Part shown: positions 59,530 to 64,000 of the stretch, one piece after another
Numbering within the stretch: the first letter of the stretch is position 1
Layout: every line of letters starts with the position of its first letter
Notes under the pieces: model-generated
Told to the model about the DNA's origin: nothing
The model's database searches: none
Seen by the model: the letters and a program-made list of their open reading frames with translations, nothing else
Made by a program: the position numbers and the translations under genes
Assembly: GCA_910575005.1 (NCBI GenBank)
Contig: CAJTCL010000003.1
Coordinates: forward strand, 62,001-126,000
Length of the DNA stretch: 64,000 nt
From: Lachnospiraceae bacterium
Lineage (GTDB): Bacteria; Bacillota; Clostridia; Lachnospirales; Lachnospiraceae
Direction: 5' to 3'

Positions 59530-59565
59530 CTGTAACTTAACTAATGTTAGAAAGGGATGAAGGAT

Positions 59566-61773
59566 ATGGTTAAGAAATTTTGGAAAAAGGCAAATTCACT
59601 TTTGTTGGCGGCCACTTTAACAGTGAGCTTGACACCGGCACAGATGGCGGCTGCAGTTGGGATGGATGACACAGCAGAATCTGCCATTACGCAGCAGGCG
59701 CAGGGAAGAGACAGTAATGTGGCTTTCTTAAGCTTAGAATCCATCACAGACAAGGAATATACTGTAATAGAAGGCAATACGCCTATTTTTCCAAAGAAAG
59801 TCAATGTAACAGGGGATGACGGAATTATGGCTCCTGTAACAATACAATGGGATGATTGGGACAAAAATTTAGCAGCCGGCGAACATAAGGTGACAGGAAC
59901 AGTAGGAAAAGATAAGATTACAGTGACAGTCCATGTACTGCCATGTGATGAAGCGGTGGCGGATGTAACGGCAACAGGCATGAGTGATAGTTCAACACAG
60001 CAAAAATTAGATGCTATCCATGCATTGAAAGGATATAAAGGTTTGTTTGTAGCGGAATATGATATTGTCCCCGAGGATGTAAAACCTACACATGACAGAG
60101 CAGTGATCTATCTTCCTGAAAAAGCGAATGATGGTTCTGCGTTGCATGCTGAAAATTGCTGGGATACTGGAGCCAGACTTCAATTTAAGTATAGCCGTAA
60201 TAATATAACCTATTTTCAGACCCAGATTGGCGATGGCCAGGTGGTAGACAATGCCAGGTATTTTCCAACAAATCAGGAATTGGACGAAGCGATAGATAAA
60301 GGTGAGAAAGTGGATGCCTTGTCCTTTGATGAAGTTAGTACTTACCATGTGCGCATTGTGATGGACACGGTTACTGACAAGACAAAAGGCAATTACAAGA
60401 TATATATCACAGATCCAGAAGGAATTGAACATGAGGTTACTCAGCCAGGTGGTAATGGATTCCGTATCTATCCCAAGGATGGTATTATCAAGAATTTTGC
60501 AGCGGTCCGCGGCAGCTATCAAATGAAAAACCACAAGATCAGTTGGATTTCTGGTTATGCCACAAAGAAAGTGGAGACATATCTGAAGGCGTCGGATACC
60601 GCAGATTATGTGAAAGAGAGCGAAGATGTTGTCACAAAAGAGCTTCCTGGTGCGATGACACAGCAGCCAGATACTGAGATTGTGAAAGACAATCAATCTT
60701 ATACTTTAGATACAGAAAAATCTGGCTGGTATAAGGGCGAGGAAAAAGTAACTTCTGTGACAGCACAGGAAGGCGAGACGGTTACTTATCGTGCATACTA
60801 TAAAGTAATTCCCCAGACGGAAGATGAAACATTGGCAGCAAAGAAAGAGATGGAAAACGCTGTCACAGCGGCGGAACAGAAAATTAAGGAAATCAACAAA
60901 GCGGATTATACACCAGCAAGCTGGAGTGCATTAGAGGAAGCTTTGAATGCATGTAAGACTTTGAATCCTGAGACGGCAACTAAGGATGATTATGTTGCCA
61001 AGAAGAAAGCATTAGAACGAGCAGTAGAAGGACTTACAAAGCTGGCAGATAAGAGCGCATTAAATCGAGCGATAGCAGATGCCAAAGCTAAGAAGGAAGC
61101 AGATTATAAGGCAGGCTTCAAGGAAATGAAGGAAAAACTGGCCGCTGCCGAGACCGTAGCGGCAAATCCAAATGCTACACAATTAGAGGTTAATTTAGTT
61201 AAGGAAGATTTGCTAGATGCAATAGGAAAATTAGTGAAAAAAGTAAAGGTGAAATCTGTCAAGGCGGCAGCTAAGAGTTATAAAATTGCAGCAGGTAAGA
61301 AGCTTGATTTGAAAAAGATATTTACCGTTTCACCGAAAAATGCAGATAACAAAAGACTGACGTATTCTCTCAGTAAGAAGGACAAAAATTATGCTTCCAT
61401 AAAATCAGGTGTAGTGACTGTCAAGAAAGCAGGCAAGACTGTGTCTGTGAAGGCGACCGCAGCAGACAAGAGTGGTAAGAGTGCAGCCATTAAGATTAAA
61501 ATTATGAAGCACGCTGTCACTAAGATTATCATTAAGAAGAAATCGCTTACGGTTAAGGCAGGCTGCAAAGTTACGCTGAAACCTGTCGTTAAGACAAGCG
61601 GCAAGAGCGCAAATAAGACGTTAGAATATACATCTTCCAACCAAAAGCTTGCCACGGTAAAGAAAGGTGTTGTCACCACTAAGAAAGGTAAGAAAGGAAA
61701 AGTGACCATTACAATTAAATCCACAGATGGCACGAATAAGAGCGTAAAGGTTAAAATCAATATCAAAAAGTAG
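59566..61773 (+). CDS. Secreted multidomain protein with FIVAR-like and BIG2 domains
   Basis: A 735-residue predicted exported protein. ATG 59566 is chosen because AAAGGG lies 9 bases upstream; ATG 59557 has no room for a site. Signal peptide about 1-30; Ig-like domain about 50-125; a beta-sandwich, possibly lectin-like, about 130-340; an Ig-like InlB-type repeat about 345-405; two helical FIVAR-like units about 415-555 (Y-T-P-A-S-W-S-A-L-E-E-A-L); two BIG2-like domains to the end (Y-T-S-S-N-Q-K-L-A-T-V). No catalytic motif is recognised. Probably a surface glycan-binding protein. The lysine-rich BIG2 tail resembles that of the protein ending at 9322. Confidence 0.8.
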   Translation: MVKKFWKKANSLLLAATLTVSLTPAQMAAAVGMDDTAESAITQQAQGRDSNVAFLSLESITDKEYTVIEGNTPIFPKKVNVTGDDGIMAPVTIQWDDWDKNLAAGEHKVTGTVGKDKITVTVHVLPCDEAVADVTATGMSDSSTQQKLDAIHALKGYKGLFVAEYDIVPEDVKPTHDRAVIYLPEKANDGSALHAENCWDTGARLQFKYSRNNITYFQTQIGDGQVVDNARYFPTNQELDEAIDKGEKVDALSFDEVSTYHVRIVMDTVTDKTKGNYKIYITDPEGIEHEVTQPGGNGFRIYPKDGIIKNFAAVRGSYQMKNHKISWISGYATKKVETYLKASDTADYVKESEDVVTKELPGAMTQQPDTEIVKDNQSYTLDTEKSGWYKGEEKVTSVTAQEGETVTYRAYYKVIPQTEDETLAAKKEMENAVTAAEQKIKEINKADYTPASWSALEEALNACKTLNPETATKDDYVAKKKALERAVEGLTKLADKSALNRAIADAKAKKEADYKAGFKEMKEKLAAAETVAANPNATQLEVNLVKEDLLDAIGKLVKKVKVKSVKAAAKSYKIAAGKKLDLKKIFTVSPKNADNKRLTYSLSKKDKNYASIKSGVVTVKKAGKTVSVKATAADKSGKSAAIKIKIMKHAVTKIIIKKKSLTVKAGCKVTLKPVVKTSGKSANKTLEYTSSNQKLATVKKGVVTTKKGKKGKVTITIKSTDGTNKSVKVKINIKK

Positions 61774-61829
61774 TCTTGTACAAATGACAGATAGATACCA
61801 GAAATCACTGGGATGAAAGGAGGAAGGAT

Positions 61830-62696
61830 ATGTATCAAAGTAAACGGTTTGCTTATACTTATGATGATCAGGGGAAGACGGCAGCAGATCTGTTGCAGGA
61901 AATTATGGAGGATGCACAGTTACCGGAGTTAGATGAGATCGTAATTGGAGCTTGGGGAGACAATTGCTGGGATGAAGGTGAGGAAGGCGTACAAATCATT
62001 ATAGATGGAATTGTGGCAAATAAGGAGAAATTTTCTCATGTCACAAGTCTGTTTTTCGGAGATATGGGTTATGAGGATTGTGAAGTTTCCTGGATTATTC
62101 AGGGAAACTACTCCAAACTCTGGGAGGCTATGCCCCAGTTGGAGAGACTGGTAATTAAAGGAAGTAATGAGCTGGTGCTTGGAGAGATCACACATCAGAA
62201 TTTGCAGCAGTTGGAAATTATCTGCGGCGGACTTCCAGAGAGTGTGATCGCATCCATCCAGAAAGCCAAGCTGCCGGCACTGCAAAAATTAGTGTTGTAT
62301 ATTGGCGTGGAAGATTATGGATTTGATGGAGATATCTCTACCATTCGAGATTTTCTGGCCGAATCTGATTTCCCACAGCTTACATATTTAGGGGTAACAG
62401 ACAGCGAGATTCAAGATGAGATTACCGAAGTTGTTTTAGATTGTAAGTACCTCAGCCAGATTACAACCCTGGATTTGTCTTTTGGTACCATGACAGATAA
62501 AGGTGGAGAAATGCTGTTGAAAAAACTGCCGGAATATCCAAATATCAAAAAAGTGGAACTGATACATCATTTTATGTCAGATGAGATGGTGAAGCAATTG
62601 CAGAACCTTTCTGATATCCAGGTAAACGTGGCAGACCAGCAGGAAGCAGACGATTATGGTGGAGAAATCTATTATTATGCTATGCTGACAGAGTAA
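61830..62696 (+). CDS. STM4015 family protein (LRR-like)
   Basis: A 288-residue cytoplasmic protein resembling STM4015: a recurring L-x-x-L leucine-rich pattern (L-E-R-L-V-I-K-G, L-Q-Q-L-E-I, L-T-T-L-D-L-S-F-G) with an acidic N-terminal region. It has no signal peptide, unlike the secreted LRR proteins here. AAAGGAGG precedes ATG. STM4014 starts within 12 bases of the stop and STM4013 follows, so the three form one operon. The family has no assigned biochemical role; an adaptor or recognition function is inferred from the LRR fold. Confidence 0.82.
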   Translation: MYQSKRFAYTYDDQGKTAADLLQEIMEDAQLPELDEIVIGAWGDNCWDEGEEGVQIIIDGIVANKEKFSHVTSLFFGDMGYEDCEVSWIIQGNYSKLWEAMPQLERLVIKGSNELVLGEITHQNLQQLEIICGGLPESVIASIQKAKLPALQKLVLYIGVEDYGFDGDISTIRDFLAESDFPQLTYLGVTDSEIQDEITEVVLDCKYLSQITTLDLSFGTMTDKGGEMLLKKLPEYPNIKKVELIHHFMSDEMVKQLQNLSDIQVNVADQQEADDYGGEIYYYAMLTE

Positions 62697-62707
62697 GTGT
62701 GGGCTGG

Positions 62708-63757
62708 ATGGAAACAGAGAAGAAAACTATAATTTTAATCGGAGATTCCTCTTCCAAGCGAGCTGTTTTTTTTAGAAAAGCAGCGCAGGACCTCGGTGTA
62801 CGATTGCATATGGTGGAATGGGAATCTTTGAGAGAAGATTTTGATTTACAACAATTTCAGGGGGCGGCGGTAAAAATTGACCCGCCCTCTTATTTGACGG
62901 TTCATTTCACCCAAATGCAGGAACAATTAAAAGCATATCGAAGGAATCTGCGGTATTTGGCACAGGCAGACTGCCAGTTTTTAAATACGCCGGAGATGAT
63001 CTGTCAGATGCTTCATAAAAGAGAAACCAATCAACGTCTGAAAGAGCAGGGAATCGCAGTGACAGAGATGTTTTGCGAACAAATTGAGACGGTCTCACAG
63101 TTAGAAGAGATGTTGAGAGAAAAGCATTGTTACAGCGTTTTTATAAAACCGGAGTGTTTTTCAGGAGCGGCTGGCGTGGCGGCTTTCCGTATGCATCCCC
63201 TCTCTGGAAAGAGGAAACTATACACTTCCTGTCGTTTTGAAAATGGGCAGCTAGTCAATACCAAAAAGCTGGTTTGCATGGAGAATAAGATAGAAATCTG
63301 CGCTCTGTTAGATCAATTGCTGTCGTTGGGATGTGTGGTGGAACGCTGGCATCCCAAGGCGGATTATCATGGGAAAAGTTATGATCTGCGGGTTGTTTTT
63401 CAGTTTGGGCATATTGCCGCGATCGTGGCACGTCAGTCAAATGGGCCGATTACCAATCTGCATTTAAATAATCAGGCGTTGGATGTAAAAGAATTAGATT
63501 TAAATGAAAGCGTGATGGAGCAGATCGCATTGGTATGTAAAAGGTCATATGAAGTATGTACAGCTTATCAAAGCGAGGCGACAGCGTTTGGAGTCAGTTC
63601 CATGACAGGGATTGATCTGTTGTTGGAAAAAGGAACCATGCGGCCAAGGGTGATTGAGATCAATGGTCAAGGAGATTTGATTTATCAGGATATTTATCGT
63701 GAAAATCGAATTTATCAGGAGCAGGTGCGTTTTTTAGCTGGAAGCTCTGTGTCTTGA
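62708..63757 (+). CDS. STM4014 family protein (ATP-grasp-like)
   Basis: A 349-residue protein with ATP-grasp features: V-F-I-K-P-E-C-F-S-G-A-A-G-V near 150, Y-D-L-R-V-V, and the metal-binding end V-I-E-I-N-G-Q-G-D-L near 320. ATP-grasp enzymes join carboxylates to amines or thiols, which suggests ligation in an unknown biosynthesis. ATG 62708 or GTG 62699 may be the start; neither has a strong site. It lies between STM4015 and STM4013 in one operon. Confidence 0.82.
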   Translation: METEKKTIILIGDSSSKRAVFFRKAAQDLGVRLHMVEWESLREDFDLQQFQGAAVKIDPPSYLTVHFTQMQEQLKAYRRNLRYLAQADCQFLNTPEMICQMLHKRETNQRLKEQGIAVTEMFCEQIETVSQLEEMLREKHCYSVFIKPECFSGAAGVAAFRMHPLSGKRKLYTSCRFENGQLVNTKKLVCMENKIEICALLDQLLSLGCVVERWHPKADYHGKSYDLRVVFQFGHIAAIVARQSNGPITNLHLNNQALDVKELDLNESVMEQIALVCKRSYEVCTAYQSEATAFGVSSMTGIDLLLEKGTMRPRVIEINGQGDLIYQDIYRENRIYQEQVRFLAGSSVS

Positions 63758-63818
63758 GATTTTGAAAATAGTTATCAATATAAGTTAAATTTTGATCATT
63801 GTCAGGAAGGAATATCAT

Positions 63819-64000
63819 ATGCAAAAAATGGATATGAATCAGATTGTGGGCAAGTGCCATATTTTATTTGTCTGTCTAGATTGCCTGCGGTATGATGTGG
63901 CATTTGAGGAGCAGCAAAGCGGCGGGACGCCGGTACTAAACCGCTATGGGGACTGGAGAAAATGTCAGGCGCCTGGAAATTTTACTTATCCTTCTCATCA
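63819..64000 (+). CDS. STM4013/SEN3800-type hydrolase, N-terminal part (runs off the window)
   Basis: The first 60 residues are visible. H-I-L-F-V-C-L-D-C-L-R-Y-D has the first metal-binding Asp of the alkaline phosphatase/sulfatase superfamily, and F-T-Y-P-S-H lies where the catalytic nucleophile region is expected. CAGGAAGG precedes ATG. It continues the STM4015-STM4014 operon. Confidence 0.8.
   Translation, partial: MQKMDMNQIVGKCHILFVCLDCLRYDVAFEEQQSGGTPVLNRYGDWRKCQAPGNFTYPSH

Follow-up and report, generated by a model that had tools for sequence, protein, structure and literature searches.

STM4015, an LRR protein encoded in a widespread five-gene set, has a near-invariant C-terminus: glutamate is the exact last residue in 113 of the 116 copies collected (103 of 106 before relatives were added). 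The adjoining gene encodes STM4014, an ATP-grasp ligase which, judged by sequence comparison, lies nearest to the RimK/LysX peptide ligases among the ATP-grasp groups compared. RimK and LysX ligases have terminal glutamates as their target, and tubulin tyrosine ligase is another ATP-grasp enzyme which acts on a C-terminal Glu. With a ligase of the terminal-Glu type encoded beside a Glu-final protein, the simplest account is that STM4015 would be the protein substrate of STM4014, its C-terminal Glu being the attachment point. We give this reading a probability of about 45%, a little under even odds. The combination of such a terminus with such a ligase makes the function of the gene set directly testable and, if the substrate reading is true, STM4015 would amount to a new protein carrier or to a new protein-derived cofactor.

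The NCBI families of the STM4011–STM4015 set carry no function. A search of the open-access literature in one library, with most subscription papers outside it, returned no paper giving a function for the set, which fits the view of the original prediction that no product is known. Where papers in it name STM4013 or STM4015, this is in tables only, as far as the available portions go. A term search through the main text of ATP-grasp surveys returned no LRR. Iyer et al. 2009 reportedly deals with ATP-grasp amidoligases and may already mention the gene set.

Gene content and layout of the operon

The window, the whole stretch of 64,000 nucleotides from a Lachnospiraceae bacterium that was analysed, ends within the five-gene operon: STM4015 and STM4014 are complete and STM4013 is partial. 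The remaining genes were placed on the contig of the source genome in locus L004 (G000:C3:122000-138000), where a window coordinate equals the L004 coordinate plus 59,999. The features are as follows.

61830–62696, + strand: STM4015 family LRR protein, proposed substrate/carrier protein (288 aa; NF038076, 313.9 bits, cut-off 275)
62673–62693, + strand: last seven codons of STM4015 (to Glu288), the near-invariant C-terminus to which the Glu-final statistics refer
62699–63757, + strand: STM4014 family ATP-grasp ligase (352 aa; NF038074, 289.6 bits, cut-off 175)
63792–64000, past the window to G000:C3:126622, + strand: STM4013, alkaline-phosphatase-superfamily enzyme, start (NF038075, 375.8 bits, cut-off 250)
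L004:4623, + strand: end of STM4013, on the contig read past the window
L004:4637–5962: STM4012 (441 aa; 508.8 bits, cut-off 380)
L004:5941–7446: STM4011 (501 aa; 288 bits, cut-off 200)

All five families are thus present and adjacent, each above its NCBIfam curated cut-off. The original prediction had placed STM4015, STM4014 and STM4013 at 61830–64000; the open reading frames and NCBIfam scores bear out these identities and coordinates, including the LRR label of STM4015, and the STM4012 and STM4011 radical SAM genes which it expected past 64000 come next on the contig. Followed past the window end, STM4013 reaches a length of 276 aa. The called start of STM4014 is a GTG, with an ATG three codons further in. 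The intergenic space within the operon is too tight for an additional gene, and the G+C content of 0.41–0.44 is similar to that of the flanking DNA. A promoter scan was uninformative (14 sites against 13.3 expected). Upstream of the operon, the end (61000–61775) of a long ORF (59557–61773) has two more partial matches elsewhere in the genome at 66–67% identity.

Distribution and sampling

The full five-family set is found in 88 of the 97 loci examined, which excludes a chance association. These loci comprise six first loci, 80 from a genome collection and 11 from relatives. The collection holds at least 582 stretches encoding STM4013 relatives, of which the best 80 were kept; this sample is biased, with 58 of the 80 loci belonging to Paenibacillus, Saccharibacillus or other Paenibacillaceae, and loci were mostly reached via STM4013 matches. 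Furthermore, the operons of L004 and L120 are almost identical (STM4015 identity 100%) and other close relatives are included, so that raw counts are not independent and thinned counts are also given. Contig ends near the operon interrupt the set in L096, L101 and L102, and STM4011 is absent from the stretch of L098. L099 is without STM4014 and STM4015, L100, L103 and L117 have only STM4013 of the five, and L127 is without STM4014 and STM4015 at the locus, with STM4015 on a different contig of the same genome.

The gene set is spread over many phyla: Bacillota, Cyanobacteriota, Myxococcota, Actinomycetota, Deinococcota, Chloroflexota, Planctomycetota and Pseudomonadota. Its distribution is patchy: among 61 genomes related to the window STM4015 is present in 7, and among the 29 of the same genus in 6. 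In a sample of 398 genomes from the phylum, 8 have an STM4013 above its cut-off. A near-identity search for the Salmonella operon found 80% of it in none of 5,426 E. coli genomes; some match exists in 94 of them and, among the matches listed, this is the HAD gene alone.

Several isolated occurrences were also recorded. A lone STM4013 lies on a Streptomyces albidoflavus plasmid (L038:7998–8792), where a NUDIX gene and one annotated as lasso peptide biosynthesis B2 protein lie close by. STM4015-like sequence appears in five ‘phage’ records, in H22–H25 within short or terminal parts, and host DNA is a possible cause. A role as a phage or mobile defence system was considered and rejected: a pattern-based scan of viral contigs with STM4015 gave nothing, and PADLOC returned weak radical SAM matches for STM4012 only and none for the other four genes.

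The C-terminus of STM4015

In the window, STM4015 ends in YYYAMLTE. All 78 proteins from single-copy loci end in Glu. Two to four copies are carried by 14 of the 92 loci with complete STM4015; here 35 of 38 copies are Glu-final, and the three proteins which do not end in Glu are all extra copies in these multi-copy loci. Nine of nine previously unseen copies in seven further plasmid loci, drawn from 26 plasmid records matched, are Glu-final as well, a count which is not fully independent because the broad taxa overlap those of the earlier loci. It leaves out L133, seen earlier, and L134, which is the L126 gene (both Glu-final); one locus, L167, holds STM4013 only.

After thinning to less than 70% identity, Glu is final in 53 of 56 proteins. 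Position −7 is Arg in 50 of them, position −6 is Tyr or Phe in 50 and position −3 is Val, Leu or Ile in 51. The pattern [RK][YFW]xx[VLIMT]xE directly at the stop is present in 97 of 106 STM4015 versus 2 among the other 11,159 ORFs, and these two, located in cyanobacterial loci, look like STM4015 remnants. Partners encoded in the same operons are rarely Glu-final (STM4014 8/84, STM4013 3/86, STM4012 3/82, STM4011 0/79).

The terminal Glu is encoded by GAG in 61 and by GAA in 52 of the 116 copies and the stop is TAA in 66, TGA in 26 and TAG in 24. As both Glu codons and all three stops are used, the constraint acts on the last residue of the protein. Translational overlap as the origin of the terminal Glu is ruled out by this variety and by the ATGA overlap form, which occurs in only 15 of 116 copies.

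What is conserved in the tail is the terminal Glu together with R and Y/F, rather than the entire tail. A variable acidic linker sets off this short segment, which otherwise differs among groups, and copies from the same locus are 60% alike over the last seven residues versus 50% over the body (38 pairs). The AlphaFold model of STM4015 has a mean pLDDT of 93.3, with 96 for residues 271–280 and 90 for residues 281–288; the tail is predicted to be ordered and not a free arm. In a myxobacterium, an STM4015-type LRR is fused to a WGR domain with the tail kept (L109:18156–19589).

Placement of the STM4014 ligase

The original prediction described STM4014 as ATP-grasp-like, which is right and can be refined by model matches and hhalign. 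At E values up to 0.01, the 33 STM4014 compared with family models matched rimK_fam (21), MptN (17), LysX (10), CofF (7) and D-Ala ligase (3). In hhalign, the STM4014 family gave 98.6% with a RimK set (E 1e-15), 92.9% with a Ddl set (3.6e-7) and 84.6% with a third ATP-grasp set (6.8e-6), assigned biotin carboxylase by motif. Across 82 STM4014 the RimK HMM reached a median of 28.4 bits against −0.6 and 0.9 for the control HMMs; with small sets (11, 6 and 9 sequences) chosen by a crude motif filter, the RimK margin in both comparisons is indicative only. A stretch conserved in the family, D-x-R ... R-x-S ... I-T-N, can be aligned with LysX.

Pfam and PDB place STM4014 less clearly. Pfam matches are mixed (among 33 proteins, ATP-grasp_3 13, ATPgrasp_ST 13, YheCD 12 and RimK 3) and the top PDB match, an inositol phosphate kinase at E 0.00039, precedes LysX (0.0011). 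Against TIGR00768, which represents the RimK family proper, the window STM4014 scores 18.1 bits. This is far under the curated cut-off of 143.4, so STM4014 forms a related clade outside the RimK family proper.

Phosphoryl-transfer and radical SAM enzymes

STM4013 was expected to belong to the sulfatase/phosphatase superfamily. This holds, and in the PDB it is related to sulfatases and to nucleotide pyrophosphatases/phosphodiesterases. The nucleophile position is Thr in 91 of 91 proteins, and the formylglycine motif [CS]xPxR, sought as a regular expression, is found in one of the 91. STM4013 is therefore not a sulfatase by mechanism and, from its sequence, looks like an enzyme of the phosphodiesterase/phosphotransferase type.

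STM4011 contains CxxxCxxC in 85 of 85 proteins and five more cysteines conserved in at least 95%; this radical SAM motif with a C-terminal auxiliary cysteine set is the hallmark of SPASM/twitch enzymes. Among solved structures it matches SkfB best (E 0.0014, a weak match confined to the auxiliary-cluster region), then BtrN. STM4012 has CxxxCxxC in 83 of 83 proteins, and its closest solved relatives are HemN (2.4e-57) and then the methyltransferase NocN (3.5e-36). HAD hydrolase models match the C-terminal half of the window STM4011, which is thus a fusion; among the long STM4011 of relatives, Pfam detects the HAD domain in 6 of 7, L125 being without it. In a planctomycete locus, a different HAD hydrolase (L118:9348–10001) lies between STM4014 and STM4013.

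Neighbourhood and search for a precursor

A conserved small precursor peptide had been suggested as something to look for nearby. The 3,340 small ORFs (20–80 aa) near 92 loci fall into 282 clusters, none of which spans more than one taxonomic group, and a separate precursor peptide was rejected. Of the original prediction as a whole, the gene identities, coordinates and radical SAM genes stand and the separate precursor does not; the near-invariant STM4015 tail suggests itself as a better candidate substrate.

Among the 25 largest neighbour clusters, no recurrent peptidase or exporter is seen in a fixed position across phyla. Of these clusters, the ones with members outside Paenibacillaceae and in more than one non-Paenibacillus locus are DUF6745 (five loci) and broad families which by eye resemble sensor kinases, transcription regulators and ABC transporter ATPases. 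DUF6745 and a partner of about 100 aa adjoin the operon in nine loci (L035, L036, L037, L105, L111, L161, L162, L164 and L166) from Actinomycetota, Alphaproteobacteria, Deinococcota and Chloroflexota. The partner is Asp-final in all copies checked (5/5 and 4/4).

Proposed mechanism and alternatives

The five-gene set likely makes up a modification pathway. In the scheme that we infer for the ligation, the order of the steps, their chemistry and the product, built around the observed gene set, its domain families, the near-invariant terminus and the RimK-like placement of STM4014, the LRR domain of STM4015 would be the recognition body. Using ATP, STM4014 would activate a carboxylate of the terminal Glu and join it to an amine, supplied most likely by an amino acid or by an amino metabolite. 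STM4011, with its extra cysteines and SPASM/twitch-like character, and the HemN/NocN-related STM4012 might follow by reworking either the attached group or the tail, and phosphoryl chemistry on the joined group could fall to STM4013, joined by a HAD phosphatase in some lineages. The product may remain on STM4015 or be released; no peptidase for such a release was identified, which speaks against the scheme. One elaboration, which we hold to be rather doubtful, is a new kind of protein-borne biosynthesis: a metabolite or cofactor would sit on the C-terminal Glu of the LRR protein, where the RimK-type ligase loads it and the two radical SAM enzymes and the phosphotransferase assemble it in situ. 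If this is true, a locus with tandem STM4015 copies, of which some are joined to WGR domains, would hold several carriers for its one enzyme set.

The main counter-result to the substrate reading is the tail predicted to be ordered with high confidence in the AlphaFold model, because of which a structural or docking function remains a serious rival. The tail would then cap the LRR solenoid or bind a partner enzyme via its free carboxylate, and STM4015 would do no more than organise enzymes that produce a small molecule. The conserved R at −7 and Y/F at −6 ahead of the terminal Glu suit docking or capping too, and same-locus tails only slightly more alike than bodies also count against a substrate, as does the less clear placement of STM4014 in Pfam and PDB. 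However, a cap does not require an exact stop at one residue, yet this is what nearly all copies show, whereas the adjoining STM4013, with a conserved segment near its own end, extends beyond it in 29 of 93 proteins. The RimK type of the partner ligase would also be left without a reason, and we consider a structural or docking tail possible but on the doubtful side.

Two other explanations are less likely. In the first, a small-molecule or cofactor pathway with no protein substrate, STM4014 would attach an amino acid to a soluble acceptor in the manner of MptN and CofF, whose acceptors are coenzymes, and that coenzyme would be the product of the radical SAM enzymes. The matches to the MptN and CofF models agree with this, all the proteins appear soluble and the five-gene core is without a transporter, but such a pathway explains neither the near-invariant C-terminal Glu nor the multiple STM4015 copies and is unlikely. 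Less probable still, and in our estimate very unlikely, is a RiPP-like system in which the LRR protein serves as an oversized leader and the product is its C-terminal peptide, cleaved off after modification. SkfB and NocN, to which the radical SAM enzymes are related, have roles in peptide natural product pathways, and a short tail behind a variable acidic linker is compatible with cleavage. Against it stand the neighbourhoods, where no peptidase or exporter among the 25 largest clusters keeps a fixed position across phyla, and a tail that varies between groups except for Glu and R-Y/F. The substrate reading, with STM4014 acting on the terminal Glu of STM4015, is the one that we prefer.

Comparison with known systems

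The operon shares both families and gene order with the STM4011–STM4015 set (NCBIfam NF038073–NF038076 and NF006067). In the Salmonella record, HAD is a separate gene adjoining the set, whereas in the window it is fused to STM4011. Radical SAM peptide maturases offer a second comparison: SkfB is, besides BtrN, the nearest solved relative of STM4011, and NocN is that of STM4012 after HemN. In contrast to these systems, a small precursor gene was not found near the STM4011–STM4015 loci.

The LysW/LysX amino-group carrier system likewise places a RimK-type ligase beside a small pathway gene set and a protein with a conserved Glu at its end. According to the available part of PMC10433800, LysX joins its substrate to LysW at Glu54, the C-terminal residue in the motif EDWGE, through the gamma-carboxyl. 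STM4015 differs from LysW, which is small and binds zinc, in being an LRR protein, and its tail reads R-Y/F-x-x-[VLI]-x-E in place of EDWGE; the terminal Glu is present in STM4015, and the zinc-binding fold with EDWGE is not. Genes of the LysZ/Y/J/K type are missing from the STM4011–STM4015 set, which has two radical SAM enzymes instead.

Lastly, RimK acts on the C-terminus of a folded protein, ribosomal protein S6, as stated in the accessible portion of PMC7343187. The ligase family and, as proposed here, a folded protein's C-terminus as the target would be common to RimK and STM4014. The differences are that the proposed target is an LRR protein encoded in the same operon, and that radical SAM and phosphoryl-transfer enzymes are added to the ligase.
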